NCBI RefSeq assembly: GCF_902859745.1
Contig: NZ_CADIJW010000004.1
Span: forward strand, 1 to 64,000
Direction of reading: 5' to 3'
From: Achromobacter dolens
Lineage (GTDB): Bacteria > Pseudomonadota > Gammaproteobacteria > Burkholderiales > Burkholderiaceae_B
DNA length: 64,000 bases
Shown here: positions 7,585 to 41,034 of the stretch, piece after piece
How positions within the stretch are numbered: position 1 is the first letter of the stretch
How the letters are laid out: every line of letters begins with the position of its first letter
The notes under the pieces: model-generated
Told to the model about the DNA's origin: nothing
The model's database searches: none
The model's input: the letters and a program-made list of their open reading frames with translations, nothing else
Program-made: the position numbers and the translations under genes

Positions 7585-7669
7585 GCCCAGGTGGCGGAAT
7601 TGGTAGACGCGCATGGTTCAGGTCCATGTGCCGCAAGGTGTGGAGGTTCGAGTCCTCTCCTGGGCACCA
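7585..7669 (+). tRNA. tRNA-Leu (anticodon CAG), copy 1
   Basis: An 85-nt class II tRNA with encoded CCA. The acceptor GCCCAGG pairs with CCTGGGC, the anticodon loop is TTCAGGT, and there is a long variable arm. It is identical base for base to the copy at 8758-8842. Confidence 0.97.
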
Positions 7670-8757: not shown

Positions 8758-8842
8758 GCCCAGGTGGCGGAATTGGTAGACGCGCATGGTTCAGGTCCAT
8801 GTGCCGCAAGGTGTGGAGGTTCGAGTCCTCTCCTGGGCACCA
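8758..8842 (+). tRNA. tRNA-Leu (anticodon CAG), copy 2
   Basis: An 85-nt exact duplicate of the tRNA-Leu at 7585-7669, same strand, starts 1173 bp apart. It has the same TTCAGGT anticodon loop, long variable arm and encoded CCA. Confidence 0.97.
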
Positions 8843-25979: not shown

Positions 25980-26198
25980 TCAAAAACAAAGCCGAGAAAC
26001 CATTTCATTGTGCTCGAGCACCTGCCGGCGTATTGCCGCCGGCGTCGCATCCACTTCCGCCGCCGAATTGAAATATATCGGCCGGGCATGGTCGCAATAT
26101 TCAATCCCGGTCCGCGGGGGGAGCGATCCGCACCCAGCCAGACTTGAGCCGATCAGCCACGACATCGTCATCGCTGCGAGCCACTTTTTCCTGCACAT
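25980..26198 (-). CDS. Rz1-like outer-membrane lipoprotein spanin
   Basis: A 72-aa lipoprotein whose reading frame begins inside the Rz-like gene in another frame, the classic Rz/Rz1 overlap. The signal peptide ends LAGC, with Cys23 as the lipidated residue, followed by Pro-rich SLPPRTG. Together with the inner-membrane partner it would fuse inner and outer membranes in the last step of lysis. It extends about 120 bases beyond the end of Rz. It is the last gene of the lysis unit. Confidence 0.75.
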   Translation of the reverse strand: MCRKKWLAAMTMSWLIGSSLAGCGSLPPRTGIEYCDHARPIYFNSAAEVDATPAAIRRQVLEHNEMVSRLCF

Positions 26199-26373
26199 CC
26201 CTGGCCTCCTTGCGGGCCTGGCCCGCCCGCGCCTGGAGGCGGGCCTCACTGTCCGAGCGTTCCTGCGCCCGGCCCATGGCCCGCCCCCGCCAATACACCC
26301 CGGCGACGGCGGCCAGCCCCGCCAGCACTGCCGCCACCACGCCGAGGCCCCGCTTAATCCACTGTTGCAACAT
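26101..26373 (-). CDS. Rz-like inner-membrane spanin
   Basis: 90 aa with one N-terminal membrane helix (about 9-27), followed by a charged Arg/Ala/Gln/Glu coiled coil (about 30-70), the layout of i-spanins. It overlaps the endolysin end by 20 bases and contains the start of the Rz1-like gene. Identification is by topology and position, as spanins share little sequence. Confidence 0.72.
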   Translation of the reverse strand: MLQQWIKRGLGVVAAVLAGLAAVAGVYWRGRAMGRAQERSDSEARLQARAGQARKEARDVQEKVARSDDDVVADRLKSGWVRIAPPADRD

Positions 26374-26884
26374 GCGCCGTGCTCCTGTCGGACCGCGTCC
26401 GGATGGCCGTCACGGCCTGCTGGTAAAGGCCGGCCCAACTGTCCGGCTTGGGCTTGCCCGGCCGCCAGGTGCGCAAATACAGCGCCCAGGCCGCCTGCGT
26501 TTCGCCGACCGGCGGCAGCGCCTTCGGATCGGTCCAGAGCAGCAGCCGCGCAACGCCGGCGGCCAGCACATCGTCATACTCCAGCGCGGCATAGATCGCC
26601 TCCGGATCGCCGGCCACGCCGCGCGACTTGCACAACATGGCCAGGTGATCCCTGCTGGCCGCGTGGAGGAACACACCCCACACGCCGCCGCGGCTGACGC
26701 GCGTGCCCTTCTCGAACTGCCAGAAGCCGCGGGCGGGCCCGCCGATCTGCCGCCGATGCACGAAGCGGCTTTCCTGCAGGCCGATGGCCAGCAGCATGCA
26801 GTCCGCCTCGGGCGTATCCATGCGCGCGGGCAACAGCGCCATCGCCGGCCGCACCGCATCGTCCATGATCTGGTCAAGCGTCAT
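26354..26884 (-). CDS. Phage endolysin (lysozyme/transglycosylase-like)
   Basis: A 176-aa soluble protein with no signal peptide. The LLAIGLQESRF segment puts a candidate catalytic glutamate at residue 38, followed by RGFWQFE, a pattern seen in lysozyme-superfamily phage endolysins. It would cleave peptidoglycan once the holin opens the membrane. It overlaps the holin gene by 11 bases with GGAGG just before its start. Exact bond specificity is not known. Confidence 0.75.
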   Translation of the reverse strand: MTLDQIMDDAVRPAMALLPARMDTPEADCMLLAIGLQESRFVHRRQIGGPARGFWQFEKGTRVSRGGVWGVFLHAASRDHLAMLCKSRGVAGDPEAIYAALEYDDVLAAGVARLLLWTDPKALPPVGETQAAWALYLRTWRPGKPKPDSWAGLYQQAVTAIRTRSDRSTAHVATVD

Positions 26885-27335
26885 GCCTGCCCTCCTTGTC
26901 TGCGTGGGTTTCCATGCCCAGCGTCTTGCGTCGGATCTCGACCGCCCAGTCCACCAGGTCCTGGTTCTGCAGCTTGGCGGTCAGGCGCAGGTAAGCGCCC
27001 AGCACCCACCAGGCCGGCAATCCCGCCAGCAACATGCACGGGCCGAGCACATAGAACATGGCCAGCAGCCCGTCCTCGCCCAGGCCCGTGCGCTGCGCCA
27101 TCCAGTAGGCCGAGGACATCAGGTCGGGCATCCAGGCGATCATGCCGATCGCCAGCAAAGGCCCGAACAGAAATGAGCTGACCACCGTGCAGGCGGTGCG
27201 CGCGACGAATTCGCGCGGCGTGCGCGGCGGCATCAGCAACATGCCGATCAACGCCGCCATCGCGGCCGGCATGCCGAAAGCCAGCGCAATTTTCAGGGCG
27301 GCCCAACCGCCCAAACCCGTAGATGCCGGTTCCAT
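26874..27335 (-). CDS. Holin-like membrane protein
   Basis: 153 aa with three predicted membrane helices (about 13-35, 48-68, 89-115) and a charged C-terminal tail, the class I holin layout but longer than most. It is directly upstream of and overlapping the endolysin. The start at 27335 is chosen because AGGAG lies upstream and because the first ten residues of the longer frame are not membrane-like. It opens the lysis cassette. Assignment is by topology and context. Confidence 0.65.
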   Translation of the reverse strand: MEPASTGLGGWAALKIALAFGMPAAMAALIGMLLMPPRTPREFVARTACTVVSSFLFGPLLAIGMIAWMPDLMSSAYWMAQRTGLGEDGLLAMFYVLGPCMLLAGLPAWWVLGAYLRLTAKLQNQDLVDWAVEIRRKTLGMETHADKEGRHDA

Positions 27336-27576
27336 GGTTACACCGCTCCTGTCGACGGTGCGCATTGCTGCCTCCCGTGAACATCACGGGCGCCGCAGGG
27401 GCGCGCCGGATGGACCAATTCAAATGTGGATGACGCTGCCGTCCGTTTGCCGCAGGCATTGCCAGGACCGGCATACGTTCTGCCGTTGTCTATTGCCTTT
27501 CTCCTATGCCCGGGACACGCAGGCCGAGTCGGCCTTCCTGAGCCGCCATGCCAGTCAGCGACAGGCGGAACCCGAC
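27336..27576. other. Gene-free gap between tail operon and lysis cassette
   Basis: About 240 bp with no gene I can support. It should hold the promoter of the lysis unit, because the tail operon ends at a terminator just to its right. I could not identify a convincing -35/-10 pair. Confidence 0.35.
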
Positions 27577-27600
27577 AAAAAAAGCTCGCCAAGGCGAGCC
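27577..27600 (-). terminator. Terminator ending the tail structural operon
   Basis: On the minus strand GCTCGCC pairs with GGCGAGC around a two-base loop, with seven T after it. It lies 19 bases after the stop of the fibre assembly gene. Confidence 0.85.
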
Positions 27601-27618
27601 ATGATTTGCTTGCGCCGG

Positions 27619-28068
27619 TCAAATGGGCTCAACAGGCCACTCGATCTGCGCGGGGTAGTGGGTCTGCCCGGAGACGCGGTTCAGTTGCACCCGATACGCC
27701 TTCCATGCCGCCAGCGCGGTTCTTTCGGCATCCGTCGCGACGCCAAGATCCACAGCATCCGACAGGGGGGCCATTCGCAGTCCGGCGCGCTCCAGCAGAA
27801 AATCTCGTCGAGCGCGTGCCGCAGCCTCCAGTTGCTCCTTCGTTAGCGATTCCGGCGGAGCGGCGAGGGAAGGGTTCGGAATGTCTTCGGCGGCCCAACG
27901 GCCCTCCACAATCCGGTAACGCTTGCCCTCTTCGATGAGCGCAGGCGGGGCCATATCGATGGAACCGCCCGGCATCAGGAAGACGCCGGATTCCAAGGGG
28001 GACTCGTCTGCGGTGACCTGGCCCACGTAGTAACCCTCATGATTCAGTTGCGAAACCATTTTTTCCAT
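27619..28068 (-). CDS. Tail fibre assembly chaperone-like protein
   Basis: 149 aa, directly downstream of the fibre gene, where phage fibre chaperones are encoded. The C-terminal half resembles the phage tail fibre assembly family: a helical section of the R-RD-LL type (about 86-98), then WKAYRVQLNRV and PAQIEWP at the end. AAGGAG precedes the start. It would help the fibre fold and trimerise. Confidence 0.75.
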   Translation of the reverse strand: MEKMVSQLNHEGYYVGQVTADESPLESGVFLMPGGSIDMAPPALIEEGKRYRIVEGRWAAEDIPNPSLAAPPESLTKEQLEAAARARRDFLLERAGLRMAPLSDAVDLGVATDAERTALAAWKAYRVQLNRVSGQTHYPAQIEWPVEPI

Positions 28069-28079
28069 GCGATATCTCC

Positions 28080-29111
28080 TTAGTATTTGATGCAGGCGAA
28101 CAGTGCCAGGTTGCGTGGGCGAACGGACGCCAGCGCCGCCGAGGTACCCAGAGTCGTGTACGACCAGCCCGCCAGGAAGGAACCAGAGCCGCTGGTGATG
28201 TCATAGCCTTCCGTATAGGCATCGCCCACCTTGAACGAGACGCTCCCGTTATCGGTGCTGAAACGCCACTCACCGTTCTGGGACAGATACGGGAAGGAAG
28301 GATTGCTGACCGCTCCGATCACGCGGGAAGCACGCTGGCTGGATCCCAATTGGCGGCCGGCGTCCGCCCCCCGTCCGTCGTCCCATCCCCGCACGAACTC
28401 GCCGCGCAGATCGGGCAAGACGATGTACGCACCCGTGGTGCTGCGCGTGTTCATCGGATCTGCGGCGTTGGTGCAGCGGTACCCCACCGGCGCGGTCGCG
28501 TTCAATGCATCGCCGCAGTAGATGGCCGACGCCAACGCTCCATAAGCGCTGACAGACGCTGCGGCGCCATTGGCCCGCATCCATCCATAAGGCACTTTCG
28601 AAAACGGGAAGTAGGCGATCTGGCCGCACAGCGGCGAGCGATAACCGGTATGGATGGCAGAAGAACCCCAGATCCAGACCTCACTGCATTCGGCGACGAT
28701 GATGGGGCCGACATCCTGCGTGGGAAGCGCATTGATCGAATACACCCGCGGGAAGTTACCGCTCACGAACGCGGTCGTCGCGATCCTCGTGCTCTTATCC
28801 GCCGCCGCCGGCGTCGGCGCGGTCGGTGTCCCGGTCAGCGCCGGCGACGCCGCCAGCGCCGCCACGAACTTGGCCTGCAGCGCCGCCAGGTCGCCGTCGT
28901 CCAGCACGTCCTGGCCGGCCTTGTCGGCGATGTACTGGCCGATCATGGCAGCCACGAACGCAGCCTGGCGCCAGACGGTGTTGAGTTCCTTCGATTTGGC
29001 CGTGCCGGCCGAGAAGCCGCCCAGCCGGGCGGCCAACGCCTGGTAGTCGGCGGGCGCGAGCACATTGGCGCCGGGAACGGTGCCGAAGGGAAGAATCTGA
29101 TTGATAGCCAC
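28080..29111 (-). CDS. Tail fibre with collar-type C-terminus
   Basis: A 343-aa fibre that would bind the target cell. Translation starts at GTG with AAGGA upstream. The N-terminal ~100 residues (PFGTVPGANVLAPADYQAL, then a helical stretch) attach to the baseplate. A low-complexity Ala/Thr/Pro linker follows at about 88-110. The C-terminus has the phage tail-collar pattern, with LPDLRGEFVRGWDDGRG followed by a terminal RPRNLALFACIKY. It is the only fibre gene in the locus, so it probably sets the killing spectrum. Confidence 0.85.
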   Translation of the reverse strand: MAINQILPFGTVPGANVLAPADYQALAARLGGFSAGTAKSKELNTVWRQAAFVAAMIGQYIADKAGQDVLDDGDLAALQAKFVAALAASPALTGTPTAPTPAAADKSTRIATTAFVSGNFPRVYSINALPTQDVGPIIVAECSEVWIWGSSAIHTGYRSPLCGQIAYFPFSKVPYGWMRANGAAASVSAYGALASAIYCGDALNATAPVGYRCTNAADPMNTRSTTGAYIVLPDLRGEFVRGWDDGRGADAGRQLGSSQRASRVIGAVSNPSFPYLSQNGEWRFSTDNGSVSFKVGDAYTEGYDITSGSGSFLAGWSYTTLGTSAALASVRPRNLALFACIKY

Positions 29112-29124
29112 GGAATGTCCTTAT

Positions 29125-29790
29125 TCAACCGGCAAAAAGCGAACCCCAGAGTCCGCCGTCGAACCCGGAGATGTAGTGGTTTTGAACGTCAAAACCGAAC
29201 AGAGGCCCCTCTTCCGAGGGGATGACGTAGTAACTGATGCGCACGCCTTCCGGCTTGAGCGGGATGTATCCGCCGGTCAGCAGCGCCAGGAACAGCGCGG
29301 ACGGCGGCGCGCCGGCGACGCCGATATCCACCGACATGTCGCCGTTGTCCTGGATGAACACGTGCGTGCCGCCACCGAAGATGCGGTCCAGGATGGCGGC
29401 CGAAGTCTCCAGCGTGCCGTCCCAATGATTCGCCCCGATCTTGGCCCGCAGCAGCAGCCGGTAGGTATCGTCGTCCAGCTCGGTCAGGCCGCTGTCCGGA
29501 TCGAACGGGCCTTGCCACACGCCCTGGTCGAAGCCCAGGCCGTCGATGTCGTGCGAGAAATACACATTGGAGATCGGCGTTCTGACCTTCCGGTCCAGTC
29601 CCACCCAGCGTCCCACCGCATCGAGCTGGGCGCCAATGGCCAGGTCCAGGTCGAACGCTGCCGGCATGCTGCCGTATAGCTCGCGCACGCCCGCCGCAGC
29701 GTCGCACAGCGCGGCCACGGTGGCCTTGAACCGGGGCCTGGCGCGGTGATAGGCCGACAGCCGGCCGATGTAGTCGTCTGTGTTGGCCAT
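29125..29790 (-). CDS. DUF2612 baseplate protein (gpI-like)
   Basis: A 221-aa protein of the DUF2612 type, placed where phage P2 carries gpI, between the wedge protein and the fibre. The N-terminal FDLDLAIGAQLDAVGRWVGL segment (about 45-65) is the characteristic helical repeat. The aromatic-rich C-terminus probably anchors the fibre. It begins just after the gpJ-like stop. Confidence 0.82.
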   Translation of the reverse strand: MANTDDYIGRLSAYHRARPRFKATVAALCDAAAGVRELYGSMPAAFDLDLAIGAQLDAVGRWVGLDRKVRTPISNVYFSHDIDGLGFDQGVWQGPFDPDSGLTELDDDTYRLLLRAKIGANHWDGTLETSAAILDRIFGGGTHVFIQDNGDMSVDIGVAGAPPSALFLALLTGGYIPLKPEGVRISYYVIPSEEGPLFGFDVQNHYISGFDGGLWGSLFAG

Positions 29791-29791
29791 A

Positions 29792-30973
29792 TCAGGTCAC
29801 CGTGAGTTTCACGTCGTCCGGCGTCGCCGCGGCGGCTTCGTTGAAGGCCAGCGACACGTCGGGCGCGCCGCTGCCCGCGGGACTGCGCAGGGTCAGGCCG
29901 GAAATCTTGAACGTGCCATTGCCTGCCACGCCATTGGCGGCCGAGATGGCGTCGGCCCACTCCACCGACGCGCTGGCGCCGCCGCCGATCGGAACGCCAT
30001 TGACGTAATCCGCCACCGCCCGCTGCACCGCGACGCCGATGGCGGTGGTATAGCCGGGCAACGCCCGCAGTTGCACGTCGACCGCCAGCGGCACGATCGT
30101 GGGCCGGAAGAACCGGATGCGGTGCGCGATGCCGTAGATATCCGTCACGACCACCGTGGTGGTGCCATGCGTGCCCGTCCCGGGCGTCTTCTTGGCGGCG
30201 ATGGCCTGGGCGATCAGCGCCGCGTCGCCGCCGTCGACCACCAGGGCGATGCTGTGCGGCGGCAGCCCATGGGCGTCCGCCACCGCGCCATCGTTCTCGA
30301 AGGCCGCGTGGCGCAAGACTCCCGGCACCGACGCAACCGCGCCGATGGTGCCTTCAAGCACGCTGCGCGACGGCAGCGCCACGGAACGGGCCTGCCGCAC
30401 GCGCAGGGCGGCGTCGCTCTCGACCGGCGCGCCCGGCGTCGCGGCGGCCGGATTGGTGACGGACTGCCAGCCCAGCGTCGGCGTGCCGATCTGATTGATA
30501 GTGCCCGCCGGGGCGGTCACGGCGCCCAGCGCCTGGCTCCGGGCGGTGACGGTGATCTCGCCGCCCGGCGGAATCGTCACGCTCGCCGGCAATTGCCAAC
30601 GGCCGCGGTTGGCATCCGTCGCCACCCCGTCGATGATGGTGACGCCGCCCTGCCCCACGATGCGCAGGTCCACCGAGGAGCGCGTCGCCGCGCCGCGCAC
30701 CAGGCCGTTGATCTTCACGTTGCTCGACAGCGCCGCGTTGGCTGCGGTGGCAGGCGAGAAAGCGTTATAGACGCTGATCGCCGCCGAGTTGGCCTCGTGA
30801 ATGGCTAGGGCAAACACGGCCAGTAACTGACCGTCCTGGCTGTCCGCCTCCAGGTACGTATCCGCGCCGTAGATGCCGCGATATTGTTCCTTGAAATACT
30901 GCAGCACCTCGCCATAGCTCGGCGCACGGATGCCCGCGGCGTCGATGACCGGGGCTGTGGAAAGAATCGTCAT
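29792..30973 (-). CDS. Baseplate wedge protein, gpJ/gp47 family
   Basis: A 393-aa baseplate J-like protein that forms the wedges around the hub. The N-terminal section TAPVIDAAGIRAPSYGEVL and a central stretch with ESDAALRVRQARSVALPS (about 188-205) are typical of the family. Its ATG overlaps the stop of the upstream gp25-like gene in an ATGA, showing translational coupling. Confidence 0.9.
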   Translation of the reverse strand: MTILSTAPVIDAAGIRAPSYGEVLQYFKEQYRGIYGADTYLEADSQDGQLLAVFALAIHEANSAAISVYNAFSPATAANAALSSNVKINGLVRGAATRSSVDLRIVGQGGVTIIDGVATDANRGRWQLPASVTIPPGGEITVTARSQALGAVTAPAGTINQIGTPTLGWQSVTNPAAATPGAPVESDAALRVRQARSVALPSRSVLEGTIGAVASVPGVLRHAAFENDGAVADAHGLPPHSIALVVDGGDAALIAQAIAAKKTPGTGTHGTTTVVVTDIYGIAHRIRFFRPTIVPLAVDVQLRALPGYTTAIGVAVQRAVADYVNGVPIGGGASASVEWADAISAANGVAGNGTFKISGLTLRSPAGSGAPDVSLAFNEAAAATPDDVKLTVT

Positions 30974-31323
30974 AATGCCGCCTGCACAGTGGCCGTGCCG
31001 AAAAGGGTTGAAATGGATGCCGTCACGCTCAGGCCGCGGGTTTGCGGGTCGAGCCGGCTCGAATACTCGGCCAGGTCGGTGACGCCGGCGGTGCCCAGGA
31101 TGCGCTGGCGGATGGCCCAGTCGTAGCTGGCGCGGGGCTGCTTGCCCAGCACTTCGCCGTTCCAGGGCATGCCTTCGGTCACGTCCAGGAACCACTCGCC
31201 GCGCGCCAGCATCAGCCGGGTCTTGACCGCTTGCGCCACGGCCTCGGCCGAATCGCGGTGGAAATCGGCCCGTGCCGAGCCGAATGAATAGTCGCCATCG
31301 GCGTCCAGTTTTCGGTAACGCAT
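30970..31323 (-). CDS. gp25-like baseplate wedge protein
   Basis: 117 aa between spike and gpJ-like genes, the slot of gp25/GpW in contractile tails. The sequence shows a conserved helix (AEAVAQAVKTRLMLARGEW) followed by a short turn and FLDVTEGMPW. The family function is to start sheath assembly from the baseplate. Confidence 0.75.
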   Translation of the reverse strand: MRYRKLDADGDYSFGSARADFHRDSAEAVAQAVKTRLMLARGEWFLDVTEGMPWNGEVLGKQPRASYDWAIRQRILGTAGVTDLAEYSSRLDPQTRGLSVTASISTLFGTATVQAAL

Positions 31324-31331
31324 AGGAATCC

Positions 31332-32075
31332 TCAGTTGGGTGGCGTGGTCACCGCGTTGGCGCCTTGCGCGGTATGGGTATGGGTGTCATCGACCCGCTT
31401 GCCGTTGGCCAGGATCTGGCCGATCACGTTGAGCACGCCGGTGATCTGGGCGGTGTTGCCCTGGCCGCCGCTGCCCACCAGTCCCGCCAGATAGCTGAGC
31501 AGGCCGTTCACCAGCACCTGTCCGGAAAACTCGGACACCGGCGCGACCACGTCGAAGCCGCCCGGCGCCACGATCTTCACCTTGCCGGCGGCCGGGTCCA
31601 GCTCCAGGAAAGTCGAGCCATCGTCACTGCGCAGTTGGGTCGCGCTGGTGCTGACCGCCGGCAGCACACGGGGTTGCGAGCGCACGCCCACGTAGACGAA
31701 GCCGTCGGACAGGTCATGCATACGCATCTCGGTCTGGTCCTGCACCTGGCCAGACAGCCACCAGGCGTCGATGCAGCGCGAGGCAAACACCACCAGGCAC
31801 TCATCGCCCGGCTTGACCGGAAAGGTCAGCGTGCAATTGCCGCCCGCTGGGAAATACACGGGGCAATCCACCAGCAGCGGCAGCGCCATGCTGTGCTGCC
31901 GGCCCTCGGGCGTCTTGACCCGCGCGCGGATGGCCGGTTGCGCCGTGCACGTCATCGCCACCGGATCGAAGGCGCCGATGATCGCCGGCATGGCGGTCCA
32001 GGTCTGCGCCAGCGCGCCATGCAGCGCCGCGCCGATCGCGGCTTGCGGATCGTTCAAAGTCTCAAGTCGGTTCAT
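31332..32075 (-). CDS. Gp138-type membrane-puncturing spike
   Basis: 247 aa. It contains an OB-fold N-terminal domain (about 25-115), a beta-helical region with repeated VAPGGFD- and VNGL-type turns, and a C-terminal tip with THTHT, where histidines usually bind an iron ion. It would form the trimeric needle that pierces the outer membrane when the sheath contracts. Confidence 0.85.
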   Translation of the reverse strand: MNRLETLNDPQAAIGAALHGALAQTWTAMPAIIGAFDPVAMTCTAQPAIRARVKTPEGRQHSMALPLLVDCPVYFPAGGNCTLTFPVKPGDECLVVFASRCIDAWWLSGQVQDQTEMRMHDLSDGFVYVGVRSQPRVLPAVSTSATQLRSDDGSTFLELDPAAGKVKIVAPGGFDVVAPVSEFSGQVLVNGLLSYLAGLVGSGGQGNTAQITGVLNVIGQILANGKRVDDTHTHTAQGANAVTTPPN

Positions 32076-32109
32076 GAATCTTCCTGCTGAGATAGGACCT
32101 GGCCGTGCG

Positions 32110-33138
32110 CTACTTGACGACGGCGGCAGGCTGGGCGGCGTCGCCCTCGGCGCCGGCCCGCCCCAGGTCGCCGGGAAACAGGGTGGCGTCGGTGGCCAGG
32201 CAAAGGACCTCCGTGTACCACTCGTCGCCGCGTGTGTTGCCGCGGTGCTCGACTTCCATCACGTAGTAGTAGCCATCGCCGCTGATGCGGCGCTGCTCGC
32301 TGCGATCGATTTCGTTCGCGCCCTTGCCCTCGGAGCGGGCCTGGAAGCCATACTCGGCGATGCGGCTGTTGTCCAGATTGACCAGGCCGCCCACGCGGAT
32401 GCTGGGATTGAGCAACATGCGCAGCTTGATGCCCTTCTCGGTCTGCTCCGGCATGCCGACCAGGCCGCTGTCGTGCGACAGCACGGGCACCGAACCCGGC
32501 ACATAGGCGGTTTCGGGAACCACCACCACCTTGCCGTCCTGGATGCTCCACAAGGTGTTCGCACTGCCGCAGACATCCTGCAGGTAGTCCCGCACCATGC
32601 CGGACATGACGGCCCCGCGGATCGACTTCTTGCCGCCCAGGTCGGGCACGTAGCCCTGGCGCACGCCGTAGGGGTTCATGGCCGAGCACAGCAGCCGCAC
32701 CTTGTCGGCGCGGTCGCTGCCCTTGGGCACGGTGGCGTTGACCACCGCAAAGTTGTAGGCCTTGTCGCCATCGGCCGCGGTGATTTCCAGCACGGTCTCG
32801 GTGTCACCCGAGCCGCCCCATTTGGCGCGCACCACGTTGCCGTGGAAGATCACGCCGTAATTGCCTTCATAGCCGGCCTGCAGCACCACTCGGGTGAATT
32901 CGCGCTGCGCCAGGCTGGCGGTTTCACGGCTGGCGTTCATCACCTTGATGGTGGCGGTGTTGGGGGACTTGGCGTCGTTGCGCTTGATGCCGAAGCTGAA
33001 GCTCAGCGCCGACAGATCCAGCGCCTCCTCGTCGCCGACGATCAGCGACACCTTCCGGCCCCACTGGCGCACGCCCTCATCGTCATCGACCGGATCGCCG
33101 TATACGGCGATCGGCTCCATTGTGGTCGTGTCCGCCAT
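32110..33138 (-). CDS. Baseplate hub protein (gp27/gpD-like)
   Basis: 342 aa, just upstream of the spike gene, as expected of the hub on which the spike sits. Start taken at ATG 33138, adjacent to the stop of the previous gene. There is a beta-rich N-terminal half (DLSALSFSFGIKR, then IKVMNAS) and a second half with YYYVMEVEHRGNTRGDEWYTEVLC, which matches the phage late-control/hub type. Identification combines these features with gene order. Confidence 0.75.
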   Translation of the reverse strand: MADTTTMEPIAVYGDPVDDDEGVRQWGRKVSLIVGDEEALDLSALSFSFGIKRNDAKSPNTATIKVMNASRETASLAQREFTRVVLQAGYEGNYGVIFHGNVVRAKWGGSGDTETVLEITAADGDKAYNFAVVNATVPKGSDRADKVRLLCSAMNPYGVRQGYVPDLGGKKSIRGAVMSGMVRDYLQDVCGSANTLWSIQDGKVVVVPETAYVPGSVPVLSHDSGLVGMPEQTEKGIKLRMLLNPSIRVGGLVNLDNSRIAEYGFQARSEGKGANEIDRSEQRRISGDGYYYVMEVEHRGNTRGDEWYTEVLCLATDATLFPGDLGRAGAEGDAAQPAAVVK

Positions 33139-33139
33139 G

Positions 33140-33439
33140 TCAGTCCGCCACCCAGTAGAGCTTGGCGCCACGGCCCAGGTCGGTGGCCGTCGGCGCGTCG
33201 TCGGGCGACTCCGCCCCGGTCACGCGCAGGCCCCCGGCAAAGCCCAGGTGCCGGTATTGCCCCAGCAGGTTCAGGCCCGTCAACAGCGGAATGCCGGACA
33301 CCAGCGGCTGGCCGAGGTCATCGGCCACGTCCAATATCCAGCCCTCGCGATACTGCAGCGTCAGCCGGTAGTCGTCACCGCCCAGCGAGATGGCGAACAC
33401 CTGCGGAATCGGCGACAGAGGTATCTCGAAGTAGTTCAT
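33140..33439 (-). CDS. Baseplate plug protein (Pam3 gp18-like)
   Basis: A 99-aa beta-rich protein with FEIPLSPIPQVFAISLGGDDYRL at the N-terminus (the residues ISLGG are central) and GLRV at the centre. This small protein class was described as a plug in the simple baseplate of a cyanophage myovirus and occurs between the Dit-like and hub genes, exactly as here. Confidence 0.75.
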   Translation of the reverse strand: MNYFEIPLSPIPQVFAISLGGDDYRLTLQYREGWILDVADDLGQPLVSGIPLLTGLNLLGQYRHLGFAGGLRVTGAESPDDAPTATDLGRGAKLYWVAD

Positions 33440-33448
33440 GCGGATCTC

Positions 33449-34048
33449 CTAGTTCCAATGCAGCGAGCCGCCGTTGGGCGCGGCCGCGGGCCGGGACGCT
33501 TTCACGCCCAGGTTCTGCCTGTCCGCGGTCTTTTCCTTCTCTTTCTGGTGTGCGTAGGGCGGCAGCGACGTGCTGCGGGTCTGCGCCACGATCACTTCGC
33601 GCAGCGTCACGGTCGCGAACACGGCGCCGGAGGTCTCCCGGCTGTTCTCGACCGCGATCTTCTCGATCAGCATGCTGCTGTAGCGGCGCCGGCTGGTGAT
33701 CACATCCACCGGCTCGCGCGACTCCTGCAGATTGAGCAGTTGCGAATAGATCGCGGTGGCGTAGTCGTCGGCGGCCGCCTTGCCATTGGCCACGTCCCTG
33801 GCCCGGGCGCCGCGCAATGCCTCGTACGAGGCATTGCTCCAGGCGCACTTCATGGTCAGCGACAGCGGCAGCTTGAAGGCATGGTCGCTGATCGCCGAGC
33901 GGCCATAGGGGCCCGACTCCACCGGGTGGCTGGTGATCTTGAGCGTATCGTCGTGCGACTCGGTGATGGTCGCCTGCACCACGATGTCGCCGATCTTCTT
34001 CGACAGCAGGCCCACCATGTCGGTGCCCGTGAAATTCGTGTCAGTCAT
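33449..34048 (-). CDS. Dit-like tail/baseplate protein
   Basis: A 199-aa protein with the N-terminal fold features of Dit-like phage tail proteins: a beta strand IVVQATITESHDDTLKIT, then HPVESGPYGRSAISDHAFKLP. It connects tube and baseplate hub. Its start overlaps the end of the tape-measure gene by eight bases. The C-terminal ~35 residues are polar and probably disordered. Confidence 0.78.
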   Translation of the reverse strand: MTDTNFTGTDMVGLLSKKIGDIVVQATITESHDDTLKITSHPVESGPYGRSAISDHAFKLPLSLTMKCAWSNASYEALRGARARDVANGKAAADDYATAIYSQLLNLQESREPVDVITSRRRYSSMLIEKIAVENSRETSGAVFATVTLREVIVAQTRSTSLPPYAHQKEKEKTADRQNLGVKASRPAAAPNGGSLHWN

Positions 34049-35717: not shown

Positions 35718-35916
35718 TTTTTTCTGCCATGTGGCGGCGGTACGCTTCCGCCTTGTTGTCTGCCCGCACCGACAACGCGTCGTTCAGCAGCGCGATGTCG
35801 GCCAGGTCCAGGGTGCCGTCCTTGAGGGACTCGTACTTGCAGAGCCCCTCGAGGACCGGCGCCAGCAACCAGTCCTCGCCACCGGGCAGGCTCTTCAGCC
35901 AGCCTGTGTCGCCTCG
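35710..35916 (-). CDS. Tail-assembly chaperone -1 frameshift extension (DUF6889-like)
   Basis: A 68-codon open frame overlapping the end of the 149-aa chaperone in the -1 frame, ending at TAA 35710-35712. It encodes a conserved-looking domain with GGEDWLLAPVLEGLCKYESL and DIALLNDALSV, like the DUF6889 proteins found at this position in related phages. No ATG, GTG or TTG lies upstream in this frame near the overlap. It is therefore most likely made only as a fusion, by -1 slippage at CCCC (35916-35919) or TTTT (35952-35955), just as lambda makes gpG/GT. Confidence 0.65.
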   Translation of the reverse strand, partial: RGDTGWLKSLPGGEDWLLAPVLEGLCKYESLKDGTLDLADIALLNDALSVRADNKAEAYRRHMAEKNG

Positions 35917-36344
35917 GGGCTGCCGGTCTGGCTGGTAAGCAGCCCTTGAATAAAAGGCCCGAGGCTTGCCACGATGACGCGCACCGCCAGCGGCAGCATC
36001 ACCGCCAGGTCGATGTCCTGGAACATCGGCACGCGCTGGCTTGCCGACCAGATGGCGGTCCAGCCATGCTCCTGCCGGCGCTGGACCACCTGCATGCAGG
36101 TGTCCAGCACATAGTCGGCGTCCTCGTCCTTCATCGCCGCCAGGCCGTCGGCCAGCGGTTGCAGGACATCGGCCATGCCGCCCGGATCCTCGATGATCCC
36201 GCGCCCGCCCGCCGCGAGGCGGACGAACACGGGGATCAGCGTAGGAACGATCGGAGCGATGCGGCGCGACACGTGGAACTGTTGCTTGGCGCTCAGTTTC
36301 CCGATGGAGTACCGGTGGCCGTTCAGATCAAGTTCCTGCGACAT
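35895..36344 (-). CDS. Tail assembly chaperone
   Basis: 149 aa, located between tube and tape-measure genes where contractile phages carry the chaperone pair. It is mainly helical, with MVQ/QVVQRRQ and a C-terminal hydrophobic section RVIVASLGPFIQGLL. The normal stop is TGA at 35895-35897. A -1 shift just before it gives a product of about 205 residues. The chaperone would bind the tape measure during tail assembly. Confidence 0.78.
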   Translation of the reverse strand: MSQELDLNGHRYSIGKLSAKQQFHVSRRIAPIVPTLIPVFVRLAAGGRGIIEDPGGMADVLQPLADGLAAMKDEDADYVLDTCMQVVQRRQEHGWTAIWSASQRVPMFQDIDLAVMLPLAVRVIVASLGPFIQGLLTSQTGSPEATQAG

Positions 36345-36347
36345 GGC

Positions 36348-36788
36348 TTAGTAGGTTCCCAGGATCGTGTCGATCTTCGCGGCGTCGAAGGTCCACTTCA
36401 CCACGTCGCCGTCCTTCTTGTAGGTCAAGTCGGGCTTCTTGCTGAAGGCGCACGAACGGCACGCCGTCACGTCGCCCGTGGCCGGGTTGGTGATGGTGAT
36501 CAGGTTCTTGCCCCACAGGCGGCTGTCCAGCGACTGGGCGTCGTACAGGGCCTGCAGCTGGGCGTTGACGGGCGAGGTCTTCAGGTAGCTCAGCGTCACG
36601 GTGCCGCTCTTGTCGGCGCGCAGCGTGTGCATGACCTCGCCATCGGCGCCCACCGTCATGGCGCTTTTCTCGGCCTTGGCGGCGATGGCGATGCCCTCAT
36701 CGGCCACGCCCGAGCCGGAGCCCAGCGAAATCGCCCCGCCCGGGCCCACGAGACTGGCGCTGATATCAGCGAACGAATAGGTAGACAT
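36348..36788 (-). CDS. Tail tube protein (DUF3277 type)
   Basis: A 146-aa beta-rich protein of the DUF3277 family. It begins MSTYSFADISASLVGPGG, and the central ADGEVMHTLRADKSGTVTL is characteristic. It should polymerise as hexamer rings forming the inner tube. It lies 13 bp behind the sheath gene and 3 bp before the chaperone. Confidence 0.85.
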   Translation of the reverse strand: MSTYSFADISASLVGPGGAISLGSGSGVADEGIAIAAKAEKSAMTVGADGEVMHTLRADKSGTVTLSYLKTSPVNAQLQALYDAQSLDSRLWGKNLITITNPATGDVTACRSCAFSKKPDLTYKKDGDVVKWTFDAAKIDTILGTY

Positions 36789-36801
36789 CTGCTACTCCTG
36801 A

Positions 36802-38277
36802 TTAGCGGTTGACCGTGACCAGAACGTCGACGGTGTGGATGGCGCCGGCTTCCTTGGCGGCGACCTGGAACGGGACGGCCTTGCGCGCTTCACGGTCGGC
36901 CTGCGACTGGGTGGCGATCGCCGGCGCGTAGACGTAATAGCCCTTGGCCAGCGTGTCGCCCTGCTTGAGAGCGCCGAAGCCGGCCGAGTTCCACACGCCC
37001 GGGGCCAGGTAGCCGTTGTTGACGGCGGCCTCGCACGCAGCCTCGATCACCGAGGCGATCAGTTGGTTGCCGGCGTCGGTCTGCGGCACCTTGGTCGGGC
37101 TGGTGTACAGCAGGTTGTAGACGTCGGTCTGGACGCGGTTGCGGAACCAGATCGCGTTGTAGACCGAGTCGATGAAGATGCCGCTGGGCGTCACGCCGTA
37201 CTGGACGATGGCCGTGTCGTTGTCGTAGTTGACGAACACGTTGCAGTTCTTGGCTGCCAGCGTGTCGGCCTGGCTGCTGCTCAGGGTCTCGGCGACGATG
37301 CCGGGCTCCTGCTTGTACATCAGCGTGATGGTGGTGTTGTTGGCGTTGAAGTTCACCGTCAGCAGGCGGCCCAGCAGCGAGGCCACCGCGTACGGGCTGG
37401 CGCTGGAGAACTGCACGATCGAGTACTTGTACTTCAGCGCCTTCAACTGGCTGGCGATGTCGTCGTGGTGGGTCGGATCGAGCACCTGCGGCGCCTGGGT
37501 CGACACGCCGTACAGGTGGCGCTGGTCGGCCTCGATCAGGCCGGCCACGGCCAGGTGCTGGGCGTCGGTGATGTCGGCATCGGCGAAGGCCAGGCCCAGG
37601 AACTTGTTGGCGAAGCGGTCCAGGAACAGCGACACGGCGTCCACCGGGGTTTCGGCGACGATGCCGGCGACGGGCGCCGAGGCCTTGCCCGCGGTCAGGC
37701 CCAGCATCGACGAGATGTCGGTGCCGGCGCCCGCGGCCGTGGCGTAGCCCAGCGTCGAGGTCGCGCCCGAGGTGTTAGAGGTCACGACGAACTGCGAGCC
37801 GTTCCACAGCACCGAGGCCGACGCCAGTGCCGTCGAGATGATCGACGCGACCCCGTTCAGGTTGGTGGCGCCGGAGAAGTCCAGGCCATTGACCGTCTTG
37901 GCGGTGCCGTCGACGGTCAGCGTGAAGGCGCCCGCGGTCACCGCGGTCCAGGCCGACATCTGCTTCTCGGCGGCCGACAGCACGGCACCGCGCAGCGTGG
38001 CCGAGGTCGCGCCCTTGGCCCAGCGGCCGATGTACAACTGCGAGGGCTGGGGCGTCTGCTGGAAGTACAGCAGGGCCGCGCGGTACTCGGGCGCGCCGGT
38101 GCCGAAGTCGGCGGCGACGGCGTCGATGCCGCCATAGGAGCGCATGCGCTCGCCGGTGTCGATGACCGCGGACGAGCCCAGCAGCAGCGCGGTGTTCAGG
38201 CTCGCGCCCTGCGCCGCGAGCGGCGACATGTTGATCGTGACGTTGATCAGGCGTGATACCGGCAATCCATTAGCCAT
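36802..38277 (-). CDS. Contractile tail sheath protein (DUF3383 type)
   Basis: A 491-aa protein of the DUF3383 family, sheath proteins of simple myovirus tails. N-terminal segment: [17 protein letters not shown]. The C-terminal handshake region contains [17 protein letters not shown] and ends with a beta strand ([11 protein letters not shown]). Its presence shows that the tail is contractile. The start at 38277 has AGGG nine bases upstream. It is the second gene of the operon. Confidence 0.87.
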
Positions 38278-38287
38278 GGTAAATCCC

Positions 38288-38881
38288 TTAATCTGCAAGG
38301 TGGTTGATGTTGTCCGTCGGGGACAGCGACGCGGCGTGCGTCGTGACTTGCGCCGACAGGAGATTCAGGACCGGATAGCTGCGCGCGACCCGGCGCGCAA
38401 AACGCAGGGTCATGTCGAACTGCCGTATCCACTGCTGATTCACCAGTTCGTGCATGGCCACGATCGGCCCCGCGCCGCTCACCGCCATGCCTTGCGCCAG
38501 CAAGGGCTCGCGGTTCTGCGGCACGGCGGCGCCGTCGCGCAGCAGCGCCGCGTGGCGCAGCGCGCGCGGCCCGAACATCGAGCAAAGCACCTCGATGTGT
38601 TCGTGCCGAACGTATGAATCAGATCCTTCCCCGGCCGGGTCGTGGGTGACGACCGGACCGGCGTCCGCGGTTTGCGACCGGATGTCCATCAGGCACCAGG
38701 TCTCGGTCTGCGCGGGCGGTTCCACGCCGGCGGCAGGCCAGCGCGTACGAACCAGGTCAAGGGGCAGGCCGGACACGCCGGCGATGAACCCTTGGAACAG
38801 CGCCTCGAGCTCGGCATCCTCCAGGGGCGGAGAAATGGCGATCGGCGCCAGGTAGCCGCCGGTGGCCGAACTGTTCGCCAT
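38288..38881 (-). CDS. Tail/neck terminator protein (LIC_12616/gp12-like)
   Basis: A 197-aa protein that would cap the tail tube and sheath. It sits first in the operon, directly before the sheath gene, the usual place for terminators. The sequence contains [10 protein letters not shown], a WCLMDIRS strand and [18 protein letters not shown]. The start at 38881 has AGGAG eight bases upstream. In a tailocin this protein closes the end to which a capsid would otherwise attach. Confidence 0.78.
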
Positions 38882-39145
38882 GCGTCGCTCCTTTGTCGTG
38901 TTGAGATGCCCGAGGGCGGGTTTGGGGGAATCCAGAGGCCTGGAGGCGGAACGCCGACTTTGCTGCGCCATCGGCGCGGTGCCGCGTTGCGTGATGCGTG
39001 CGGCCGGGTTGCGGCGGATTCCGGCTGTCGCCCACCGGGCTGCCGCCTCGAGCCATTCCAGGTCACCGCGGGCGGGAGAAAGGCCCGGTCATGGAAGGAA
39101 CGGCGAGGCGGCAGGCCGCTGGGCCCCGCCTTGCGGGCGGCGCCT

Positions 39146-39183
39146 AACAAAACGCCCCGCGCTCTCGAAGAGAACGCGGGGCG
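39146..39183 (-). terminator. Leftward terminator T4 before the tail operon
   Basis: On the minus strand CGCCCCGCG pairs with CGCGGGGCG and is followed by TTTTGTT. The hairpin lies 265 bp upstream of the tail terminator gene. Confidence 0.65.
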
Positions 39184-39191
39184 CGCAAATG

Positions 39192-39215
39192 AAAAAGGCC
39201 CGCCAGTGGCGAGCC
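39192..39215 (-). terminator. Leftward terminator T3
   Basis: GGCTCGCC pairs with GGCGGGCC (one mismatch) across a three-base loop, followed by TTTTT on the minus strand. Confidence 0.6.
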
Positions 39216-39292
39216 TGTATCGGAGAACTGCGAAGAACATGAGGGACGCGCATCCGGCGATTCATCCGCCTTCCGGCGCGTTGGCCGGGCAC

Positions 39293-39335
39293 ACGTACCC
39301 TCTCATAAATAAGGCCCGCTGTAGGCGGGCCTGGT
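39293..39335 (-). repeat. Direct repeat copy B with leftward terminator T2
   Basis: About 43 bp nearly identical to 39563-39605. It contains the hairpin AGGCCCGC/GCGGGCCT (39312-39332 with a T-rich tail TTATTTATG) and the adjoining ATGAGAGGGTACGT on the minus strand. The tail is interrupted by A, so termination may be weaker than at copy A. Confidence 0.7.
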
Positions 39336-39360
39336 TTGCTTGCTGTTTGCTGTTTGCTTG

Positions 39361-39615
39361 CTACTTGCTACTGCTCGATTGTCGCGATCCGCTTGTTGCC
39401 TGCGGTGTTTTCGGTGTGCTCGGTGCGCACTTGTTGCTGCCTGCAAGGGGCGTCGATATGAACCGCAACGCCATGAACGAATTGTCGCGCACCGTCTGCC
39501 GCCGAAGCAATCCCGGCATGTCGCACTGCGTTGCGCCGATAACTGACGGCGCGTTCACACGAACGTACCCTCTCATAAAAAAGGCCCGCGGTAAGCGGGC
39601 CTGATTCTCCAGCAT
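39361..39615 (-). CDS. Possible small phage ORF (Ash-like), 84 aa
   Basis: An open frame of 84 codons that reads straight through the terminator hairpin at 39577-39602. An internal ATG at 39576 directly after the hairpin gives a 71-residue version starting MRGYVRVNAP. The RRQTVRDNSFMALRF part resembles small phage 'Ash/Icd-like' ORFs from memory. There is no clear ribosome-binding site for either start. Whether it is translated is uncertain. Confidence 0.3.
   Translation of the reverse strand: MLENQARLPRAFFMRGYVRVNAPSVIGATQCDMPGLLRRQTVRDNSFMALRFISTPLAGSNKCAPSTPKTPQATSGSRQSSSSK
39563..39605 (-). repeat. Direct repeat copy A with leftward terminator T1
   Basis: AGGCCCGC (39582-39589) and GCGGGCCT (39595-39602) form the hairpin, followed on the minus strand by six T. 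It lies 84 bp after the stop of the 85-aa regulator-like gene. It is repeated almost exactly 270 bp further left. Confidence 0.75.
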
Positions 39616-39685
39616 TCCAGCGCATCGGCGCCTGGACGGATCGTCGGCGGGAAGCGCGACGACATGGATGCATTCTGCCGCCGCA

Positions 39686-39943
39686 TCAGGCGTGCAGGCA
39701 ATCCCCCTCGCGTCGCACTTCGCCCCAGACGTAGGTCAGCGAGTTGCGCGCATGCTCGATGCGGGCCACCTGGCCGCCCTCGTGCAGGGCTTCGAGCACG
39801 CGCAGGATCGCCTGTCGCATTGCGTTGCGTTCGCGCCGCGTCAGCTCGCGCGCGCCGGACGCGCCCCGCACCAGTTCGGCCATGCGCCACGGACGCCCCG
39901 GCGCCGCCGCCATGAGGTCCAGCACTTCGGTTGCATATTTCAT
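39686..39943 (-). CDS. Small winged-helix-like protein, candidate tail activator
   Basis: 85 aa, first gene behind the leftward promoter. It reads as a small helix-turn-helix/winged fold: KYATEVLDLMAAAPGRPWRMAELVR, a helix with MRQAILRVLEALHEGG and a wing strand LTYVWGEVRR. GGGAGG lies just upstream of the ATG. Its place between the repressor and the tail operon is the place pyocin loci use for the PrtN-type activator, but no sequence relation to PrtN is claimed. Function is inferred only. Confidence 0.6.
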   Translation of the reverse strand: MKYATEVLDLMAAAPGRPWRMAELVRGASGARELTRRERNAMRQAILRVLEALHEGGQVARIEHARNSLTYVWGEVRREGDCLHA

Positions 39944-40038
39944 CGGGATGCCTCCCCGCCAAGACGCTTATCCATGCTTTTTTTTCCTTGATGCAAGCTT
40001 GCCGTTCGTCATGTCCCCGGAAAGGCTGGCGGGTGAAA

Positions 40039-40058
40039 ATCGCTACCTGGGTAGCGAT
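40039..40058. promoter_or_regulatory. Operator-like palindrome O1
   Basis: ATCGCTACCTGGGTAGCGAT is a perfect 9-2-9 inverted repeat. It uses the same TCGCTACC half-site as the operators at 40192-40259 but with the halves swapped in order. It lies in the leader of the leftward transcript. Confidence 0.6.
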
Positions 40059-40189
40059 GAATGGGCCACATGCCGGTCACCCACCCCCATCGCCACGGAC
40101 GTGGCGGCCAGCCCCGTCGTATCCGCACAAGCCGCAAGCCGCTTGATCGAAGACTTGCGGTCGGCCCGACTATGCCCGGGATGAAAGTC

Positions 40190-40218
40190 ATGGTAGCGAG
40201 TCGCTACCGAAAAATCAA
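40190..40218 (-). promoter_or_regulatory. Leftward promoter PL of the tail locus
   Basis: On the minus strand: -35 TTGATT (40213-40218), exact 17-bp spacer, -10 TACCAT (40190-40195). Each hexamer matches the sigma-70 consensus at four of six positions. The palindromic operator at 40192-40208 covers the -10 and most of the spacer, so bound repressor would block it. Confidence 0.6.
40192..40208. promoter_or_regulatory. Operator O2
   Basis: GGTAGCGAGTCGCTACC is a perfect 8-1-8 inverted repeat overlapping the leftward -10. Confidence 0.75.
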
Positions 40219-40233
40219 CAGCGAATCGCTACT
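40217..40233. promoter_or_regulatory. Operator O3 (degenerate)
   Basis: AACAGCGAATCGCTACT matches O2 well on the right half (one mismatch) and in the inner part of the left half. It begins 25 bp after O2, so both could be bound on the same DNA face region. Confidence 0.55.
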
Positions 40234-40261
40234 GTACTTTCGGGTAGCGGATTGCTACTAT
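40233..40261 (+). promoter_or_regulatory. Repressor promoter PR, likely leaderless
   Basis: TACTAT at 40256-40261 fits a -10 at four of six positions. A weak -35 (TGTACT, 40233-40238) lies 17 bp upstream. Transcription would begin about 40268-40269, at the repressor ATG. No Shine-Dalgarno precedes that ATG, so a leaderless mRNA is plausible. Operator O4 lies within the spacer, allowing autoregulation. Confidence 0.45.
40243..40259. promoter_or_regulatory. Operator O4 and adjacent half-site
   Basis: GGTAGCGGATTGCTACT is an imperfect 8-1-8 inverted repeat of the same motif. A further half-site TCGCTACC (40261-40268) abuts the repressor start codon. Confidence 0.6.
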
Positions 40262-40268
40262 CGCTACC

Positions 40269-41030
40269 ATGGACATCCGCTCGATACGACTGAACAACCT
40301 CAAATACGCCGTGCACGAGGCCGGGGGCGTCGACCGCCTGGCCGAACGCGCTGGCGTCAGTCGCAAATACCTCGACCAGATCCTTCAAGGGTTCCAGGGC
40401 AGGCGCGACAAAAACCCGCGCCGGGTCGGCGACGCGCTGGCCGCCAGGCTGGCCGCCGGCCTCGGCCAGCCCGCCCACTGGATGGACCTGCCGCACCCCG
40501 ATCTGTGGCGCGAACTCTCGCCCGATGTCGTGGCCGACGAGCCCACGGGCCGGCTTGCCTCCTTTCACCCCGCGCGGCTGGGCCGGCCCGACCACGGCAA
40601 CGTCCTCATCGCGCAGTTCGACACCGGCGGCGCCATGGGCAACGGCCTGGAGCTGCGCGACCAACCTGGCGTCATCCAGAGCTGGAACGTCAGCCCGGAA
40701 TGGCTGCAGAAGAACGTGCGCGGCTTTTCCGCCTCGAAGAACCTGTGCATCGTCACCGGGTTCGGCGACTCCATGCGCCCCATGTTCAATCCCGGCGATC
40801 CCCTGATCGTCGACCGTGGCGTGCAGGCCGTCGAATACGACGCCATCTACTTCTTTCGCGTCGGCAGCGAAGGCTTCATCAAGCGGCTGCAGCGCATCCC
40901 CACCGCCGCCGGCCTCGTGGTCCGGGCCAAATCCGAGAACACCAAGTACGATGCCTGGGACATCACCGAAGGCATGGATTTCGAGGTCTTCGGCCGCGTG
41001 CTGAAGGTCTGGCGCAGCGAGGACTTCTAG
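40269..41030 (+). CDS. LexA-type (HTH + S24 peptidase) repressor
   Basis: A 253-aa regulator with a short N-terminal helix-turn-helix (about 5-60; GGVDRLAERAGVSRKYLDQIL) and a C-terminal S24 peptidase domain (about 105-250). Ser168 in GDSM and Lys205 in GFIKRL are the expected catalytic dyad, so RecA-stimulated self-cleavage after DNA damage is plausible. At the usual Ala-Gly cleavage position the sequence reads GAMG (121-124), not Ala-Gly. It is divergent from the tail locus and should repress it through the TCGCTACC operators. The stop is four bases before DUF4153. Confidence 0.88.
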   Translation: MDIRSIRLNNLKYAVHEAGGVDRLAERAGVSRKYLDQILQGFQGRRDKNPRRVGDALAARLAAGLGQPAHWMDLPHPDLWRELSPDVVADEPTGRLASFHPARLGRPDHGNVLIAQFDTGGAMGNGLELRDQPGVIQSWNVSPEWLQKNVRGFSASKNLCIVTGFGDSMRPMFNPGDPLIVDRGVQAVEYDAIYFFRVGSEGFIKRLQRIPTAAGLVVRAKSENTKYDAWDITEGMDFEVFGRVLKVWRSEDF

Positions 41031-41034
41031 CCCC

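Follow-up and report, generated by a model that had tools for sequence, protein, structure and literature searches.

The window analysed here (positions 1–64,000 of contig NZ_CADIJW010000004.1 of Achromobacter dolens, 64,000 nucleotides in all) carries at 25980–41030 a locus for a contractile phage-type tail, designated locus 1 in the following. According to gene calls and the family databases Pfam and PHROG its tail operon is encoded on the minus strand between 38881 and 28080, and the genes of the fibre chaperone and of lysis proteins continue to 25980. The opposite end is formed by a divergent pair with a gene for a protein of 85 amino acids (aa), here p85, on the minus strand and an S24 repressor gene on the plus strand. 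Genes were called with a simple script trained on the window, and the Pfam and PHROG scans covered 20 called proteins of 26101–42843. A complete set of contractile tail genes is present and all frames are open (Table 1), which confirms both the gene list of an earlier sequence-only reading of this DNA (terminator to fibre chaperone, lysis genes, S24 repressor) and its statement that the frames are intact. Within the lysis set a family match identifies the spanin, whereas holin and endolysin are recognised from position and homology alone. The latter two are probable assignments because of hydrophobic segments, position and homologues (54% for the holin, 75% for the endolysin) that stand together after the fibre genes of a prophage on contig C11 of the same genome.

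Table 1. Features of locus 1, from the lysis genes to the repressor, in window positions
Feature	Position	Strand	Basis and remarks
Rz1-type outer spanin frame	25980..26198	-	lipobox LAGC in translation; embedded in/overlaps Rz; start codon uncertain
Rz-like inner spanin	26101..26373	-	phrog_1026, E 5e-14
Probable endolysin	26354..26884	-	phrog_3108 (function unknown); 75% homologue adjoins a holin-like gene in a further prophage of this genome
Probable holin	26874..27335	-	phrog_1024 (function unknown); hydrophobic segments
Tail fibre assembly chaperone	27619..28068	-	Caudo_TAP, E 4e-17
Tail fibre with collar domain	28080..29111	-	PF07484 (collar E 4e-10), phrog_11303
DUF2612 baseplate/fibre adaptor	29125..29790	-	PF11041, E 1e-56
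gpJ-like baseplate wedge	29792..30973	-	PF04865 Baseplate_J, E 8e-11; phrog_6, E 4e-59
gp25-like baseplate wedge	30970..31323	-	phrog_120, E 6e-29
Spike-like baseplate protein	31332..32075	-	PF18352, E 2e-36; role from position and Magia annotation
Baseplate hub	32110..33138	-	PF22759; phrog_196, E 6e-73
Baseplate plug, Pam3 gp18-like	33140..33439	-	PF22479, E 1e-22
Dit-like protein	33449..34048	-	PF21821, E 1e-30
Tape measure, 553 aa	34041..35702	-	phrog_2276 (2e-21) and other tape-measure families
Probable frameshift extension of tail assembly chaperone, 52 codons	35710..35868	-	sequence match to relatives and Magia; outside family scans
Tail assembly chaperone	35895..36344	-	PF21822, E 2e-26
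Tail tube	36348..36788	-	PF11681 (KPP10_Orf10), E 1e-56
Tail sheath	36802..38277	-	DUF3383, E 5e-154; phrog_205
Neck/tail terminator	38288..38881	-	PF23961, E 1e-27
Leader with four tandem terminator-like hairpins (39602-39582, 39332-39312, 39216-39196, 39184-39152)	38882..39685	-	terminator scan
p85, 85 aa, proposed late-operon regulator	39686..39943	-	phrog_20616; prophage context of homologues; weak winged-helix model
Palindromic operator candidate GGTAGCGAGTCGCTACC	40192..40208	.	second, imperfect site at 40243-40259
S24 (CI/LexA-type) repressor	40269..41030	+	PF00717 (1e-14), phrog_4, phrog_6201

The nearest phage is Burkholderia phage Magia (MT701587) with 74% in the sheath over its full length, 65% in the tube and a complete head module upstream. 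Temperate myophages of the Magia type share with locus 1 the order terminator, sheath, tube, frameshifted chaperone, tape measure, baseplate, DUF2612 and fibre. By its sequence locus 1 is a member of this lineage and not P2-like; a P2-like tailocin is ruled out by the DUF3383 sheath, the KPP10-type tube and the Magia gene order. The placement near simple-baseplate myophages and outside the P2 lineage, already proposed in the sequence-only reading, is thus upheld. The frame at 35710–35868 shows 92–98% in the nine relatives described below and 65% at Magia 11786–11938, within the annotated frameshifted chaperone product; a slippery site for this frameshift was not evident by eye. In contrast with locus 1, the Magia genome also encodes terminase, portal, capsid and neck proteins, an integrase and replication proteins. 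The tape measure of Magia comprises 727 aa and that of the ten Achromobacter carriers 544–578 aa, but headed relatives vary widely too. Tape-measure length fails to separate headed from headless relatives, with several lengths missing or wrong where the gene caller failed on loci of low GC content.

None of the 20 scanned window proteins matched a capsid, portal, terminase or integrase family, in agreement with the earlier statement that head and packaging genes are absent. Three families with matches to the DUF2612, plug and tube proteins (phrog_587, 349 and 280) are filed by PHROG under “head and packaging”; despite this category we read the three as tail proteins because of their Pfam families and the Magia gene order. 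Ten Magia head proteins gave no match in six Achromobacter loci (L131–L136). For comparison, a Magia-type portal turned up in 26 of the 41 related loci taken from other bacteria.

Headless contractile tails with lysis genes are represented by the R-type pyocins and BceTMilo, which locus 1 resembles in its gene content. BceTMilo is a tailocin from the same order that is UV-inducible, syntenic with P2/KL3 and still equipped with an integrase gene (PMC5411513). Locus 1 differs from it by the DUF3383-type sheath, the lack of an integrase in the window and the other phage lineage. A search for the same headless block in Achromobacter and Bordetella, which the sequence-only reading had advised, was successful in both genera. 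Besides the Achromobacter loci, four more have 10 kb upstream without Magia-type heads (Magia head search, gene calls by eye), namely those of Bordetella genomosp. 1 (L151), Cupriavidus pampae (L140), Pandoraea aquatica (L160) and Pseudomonas sichuanensis (L153). Since headless loci occur in Achromobacter and in these four species, headless forms of the Magia-type lineage have probably arisen more than once. The 85-aa gene is present also at the Bordetella locus (44–46% identity), and in some of the four loci replication-like genes are left upstream. Among the other loci outside Achromobacter, L142, L147 and L164 end too near to judge heads, L144 has neck homologues and L159 is poorly called.

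For the phylogenetic distribution 43 Achromobacter genomes, one per species, were compared, including that of the window (G000). A sheath of 91–100% identity is encoded in ten of them, called carriers here. The neighbouring genes are the same in all nine relatives; in G006 and G018, where locus 1 is split over two contigs, the left flank is found on another contig. One flanking gene, coding for an AI-2E-type transporter, exists in all 43 genomes and the other one, a GGDEF gene, in 42. In 32 of the 33 non-carriers a single contig holds both flanks, and nothing of locus 1 was found between them at a threshold of E 1e-3; the remaining non-carrier (G033, 57% complete) shows one flank only. In the tree of the two flank proteins the ten carriers constitute one side of one branch (support 93). 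This means that locus 1 was acquired once and inherited afterwards.

Ratios of nonsynonymous to synonymous substitution rates (dN/dS) against the nine relatives range from 0.09 to 0.21 for the sheath, from 0.03 to 0.40 for the tube and from 0.03 to 0.14 for S24, with 0.04–0.13 for the holin (seven pairs) and 0.02–0.17 for the flanking AI-2E gene. The tape measure reaches 0.61 in G025. In G006, G029 and G031 the module from tube to wedge has diverged (tape measure 27–28%) with frames open, while the sheath remains at 94–95% there (L006, L008–L010); an exchange of modules at one locus would explain this pattern. Simple decay of the tail block, named beforehand as a result that would speak against a tailocin, was seen in no sister genome. 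In view of the single clade of carriers and the signs of purifying selection on most genes, locus 1 is very probably a domesticated tailocin rather than a decaying prophage. The tailocin reading offered from the window letters thus gains support from gene content, the fixed site in 10 of 43 genomes, the single clade and the low dN/dS of most genes.

Beyond what the sequence-only reading had covered, a second tail locus, a shared operator and fibre cassettes in the relatives came to light. Each of the ten carriers has a second S24 gene, which was not found in any of the 33 other genomes (S24 search, E 1e-20). In the window genome it resides on contig C26 beside a gene for a Q-like protein of 196 aa and a lambda-like tail (L116, 6474–20632) with tube, assembly chaperone, a tape measure of 427 aa, homologues of M, L, K, I and J and a large fibre. 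The lambda-I-like gene is duplicated there. Head families were not met among the scanned proteins of this locus, and the locus-1 lysis proteins gave nothing below E 0.3 within 40 kb around it. We regard locus 2 as a putative headless flexible (F-type) tailocin. The flexible-tail tube is encoded in nine of the 43 genomes, all of them carriers; G018 is devoid of it and retains the S24 and Q-like genes with open frames. In G025 tube and repressor are 28 kb apart (C1:346384 and 374929) and an integrase-like gene adjoins the repressor pair; another element has probably inserted into locus 2.

Over residues 58–253 the S24 proteins of the two loci have 62% in common, but their DNA-binding N-terminal parts differ. 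Both loci hold the palindrome GGTAGCGNNNCGCTACC of the form GGTAGCG-N3-CGCTACC as operator candidate, at locus 1 placed 61 bp before the S24 gene and at locus 2 between the S24 and Q-like genes. Exact copies amount to 17 in the 43 genomes, nine at locus 1, eight at locus 2 and none in the 33 non-carriers; a reversed control pattern has seven exact matches in all. The three missing places hold mismatched sites, one in G018 at locus 1, one in G040 at locus 2 and two in G025 at locus 2. The same operator precedes the late-regulator-like gene of locus 2, which suggests that one repressor, the S24 protein of locus 1, probably governs both tailocins. Because the carriers represent one clade, it is the sharing by two loci that counts and not the number of genomes. 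In Pseudomonas aeruginosa one genome has both R-type (contractile) and F-type (flexible) pyocins, apparently with joint control and one lysis set. These pyocins are neighbours under PrtN/PrtR, whereas the Achromobacter pair is located on different contigs (C4 and C26) and has two S24 paralogues. In the single-contig genome G011 the coordinates of the two tail loci are about 2.6 Mb apart on the shorter way round, if the replicon is circular.

The leader of the tail operon contains ten terminator-like sites on both strands versus 1.3 expected, and four of them are T-run hairpins in tandem on the operon strand. With four sense-strand terminators separating the p85 gene from that of the neck/tail terminator, antitermination or some other read-through device would be needed. 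In the full prophages L270 and L273 homologues of p85 lie between replication-like and terminase-like genes (gene calls by eye), and a place between replication and terminase genes is usual for a late regulator. We propose p85 as regulator of the late operon. Its predicted fold (predicted local distance difference test, pLDDT, 75) is winged-helix-like at best and had no significant structural match, and the same holds for matches to the model of the Q-like protein. Downstream of the terminators the leader stretch 39019–39049 occurs once in the window and is conserved in all ten carriers except G006; its RNA folding is no better than that of shuffled sequences (z 1.07).

Taken together, we put the probability at roughly four in five that the block is a domesticated contractile tailocin derived from a temperate myophage of the Magia type, with the working and joint control described now. 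We infer that tail, lysis and control genes were retained from such a phage and that head, packaging, replication and integration genes were lost. The S24 repressor would sit on the divergent promoter region at the GGTAGCG-N3-CGCTACC sites until RecA, upon DNA damage, triggers its self-cleavage. The late regulator of 85 aa would then be produced, so that transcription may pass the four tandem terminators into the tail operon. Tails would assemble, and holin, endolysin and spanins would burst the cell; the released particles would bind target cells via the fibre, contract and depolarise them. As no lysis gene was found at locus 2, its tails would depend on lysis by locus 1. The wider picture, i.e. 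one SOS regulon with two tailocins split over the chromosome, S24 acting in trans, one lysis set and Rci-like shuffling of fibre-tip cassettes as a change of target in most species of the clade, we hold to have slightly better than even chances.

A decaying prophage remnant without present function would fit the descent from a temperate phage, the loss of the flexible tail in G018 and the higher dN/dS of a few genes, which in some pairs reaches 1.06 for the spanin and 0.80 for the hub, the latter in G006, G029 and G031 with their diverged module. We regard it as very improbable, because the tail frames are open at one site in ten species genomes, dN/dS is low for sheath, tube, S24 and holin, the swapped tube-to-wedge module is still open, and head and replication genes are cleanly gone while tail, lysis and control genes remain. 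Still less probable is a tail store for another phage or a satellite, in which head genes encoded elsewhere would use the locus-1 tail for DNA-carrying particles. The sequence-only reading had itself named such head genes as the critical finding, and this was tested in part. A search for Magia-type capsids, other capsid types not being searched for, had its sole match in the own genome, a distant one (25%), in the prophage on C11 (L298–L300). This myophage-like prophage could lend heads, but besides terminase- and portal-like genes it has its own sheath-, tape-measure- and baseplate-like genes (gene calls by eye). Among the nine other carriers a distant Magia-type capsid was detected only in G018 and G020 (other capsid families were not searched for). 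We give the smallest weight of all to an extracellular contractile injection system with protein payload instead of a membrane-depolarising tailocin. It would share the contractile apparatus, yet neither the AAA+ ATPase that is a mark of these systems nor a toxin family is found among the 20 scanned proteins, and lysis set and fibre are of the phage type.

A more serious competitor concerns joint control only. The two tailocins might merely coexist, each under its own S24 protein, with the palindrome as a relic of related ancestral repressors. The common ancestry of the S24 proteins, as evident from the 62% in their C-terminal part, agrees with this view, and so do other inverted repeats near the locus-2 repressor gene (by eye). 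We consider it rather unlikely, since, in spite of differing DNA-binding N-termini, the two loci have identical 7-bp half-sites and all ten carriers preserve them at either locus within 0–2 mismatches. Several further observations weigh against the domesticated, jointly controlled tailocin system that we prefer. The models of p85 and of the Q-like protein (pLDDT 63) match no antiterminator, a scan of locus 1 for sigma-70 promoters found none, G006 and G025 have a different leader, and locus 2 has no more terminators than chance would give. At one mismatch the operator pattern loses its specificity (32 of 43 genomes, with the control equally frequent), and the locus-2 site could be bound by the S24 protein of locus 2 itself, which belongs to the same family with a different DNA-binding part. 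Both loci trace to one clade and their co-occurrence is one event, not ten. Finally, the C11 prophage of the same genome could supply lysis too.

The N-terminal part of the window fibre is common to all nine relatives and its distal part is shared with G020 only. At locus 1 these two genomes have the fibre together with the Caudo_TAP chaperone, but lack a core site. The fibre end of the other eight carriers is a cassette running from the core CACTGCAAATGC (read TANA) to an end motif like ETRPxNxAYxPRIH; seven of the eight contain further, mostly inverted cassettes, and in G006 the contig ends there. Altogether 33 cassettes with this core or near variants belong to 20 families and form arrays of up to five, and six of the seven multi-member families occur in both orientations (across genomes, one genome per species). 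Beside the cassettes all eight have a gene for a tyrosine recombinase of 340 aa (69% identity in G011), seven without internal stop and one with a stop in G031. Its phage homologues are distant (35%) and are annotated as shufflon-specific in 12 of the 15 matches listed. In tailocin records of IMG/VR the recombinase is found in four of ten, the other six being shorter fragments, and a homologue exists in 17 of the 43 genomes, seven of them non-carriers.

The fibre tip of the relatives is better read as a shufflon-like cassette array with the recombinase as presumable fibre shufflase acting by inversion, so that most carriers can probably switch the tip. A role as ancestral phage integrase was rejected, as the recombinase sits between cassettes and lysis genes, its phage homologues are annotated as shufflon-specific and close homologues reside elsewhere in Achromobacter, including the seven non-carriers. 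The earlier claim of a missing integration gene consequently stands for the window but not for the relatives, eight of the ten carriers having this tyrosine recombinase at the locus. According to PMC13280938, carotovoricin Er and Pantoea tailocins change the fibre end by site-specific DNA inversion and their loci carry a DNA invertase gene; the Achromobacter relatives instead carry a tyrosine recombinase and arrays of up to five cassettes. In the window genome a homologue of the recombinase (82%) is located on C74 (L301, C74:8000–18586) beside P2-like tail genes, and a cassette end there is of the type seen in the relatives' tailocins.

The contractile tailocin itself is of a known kind; new are the second locus, the shared operator and the cassette arrays of the relatives. 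If these readings are true, 10 of 43 species genomes in a genus known as cystic fibrosis pathogen inherit a contractile killing particle of non-P2 lineage, with a second tailocin at its side and one operator common to both. To judge by the searched literature, no tailocin with a shufflon of several cassettes would have been described before it. In this literature, with subscription papers mostly outside the search, no paper joining shufflon and tailocin and, judged by titles and the beginnings of abstracts, no described Achromobacter tailocin was found. Neither was one joining tailocin, Burkholderia and Cupriavidus, and Achromobacter phages are dealt with in PMC10457797. The questions raised are whether one repressor can hold two tailocins in trans, whether a lysis-less flexible tailocin is released via another locus and whether shufflons diversify tailocin targets.

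Elsewhere in the window an Rfam scan recovered tRNAs alone. Two tRNA-Leu (CAG) genes at 7585–7669 and 8758–8842 lie on the same strand 1.1 kb apart, with a called gene in between. Next to locus 1 a gene for a DUF4153-like membrane protein (41035–42843) starts 4 bp past the S24 stop. It evolves fast (dN/dS up to 0.70), is missing in G018 and has homologues of 49–53% at the empty site in 14 of the 32 non-carriers.

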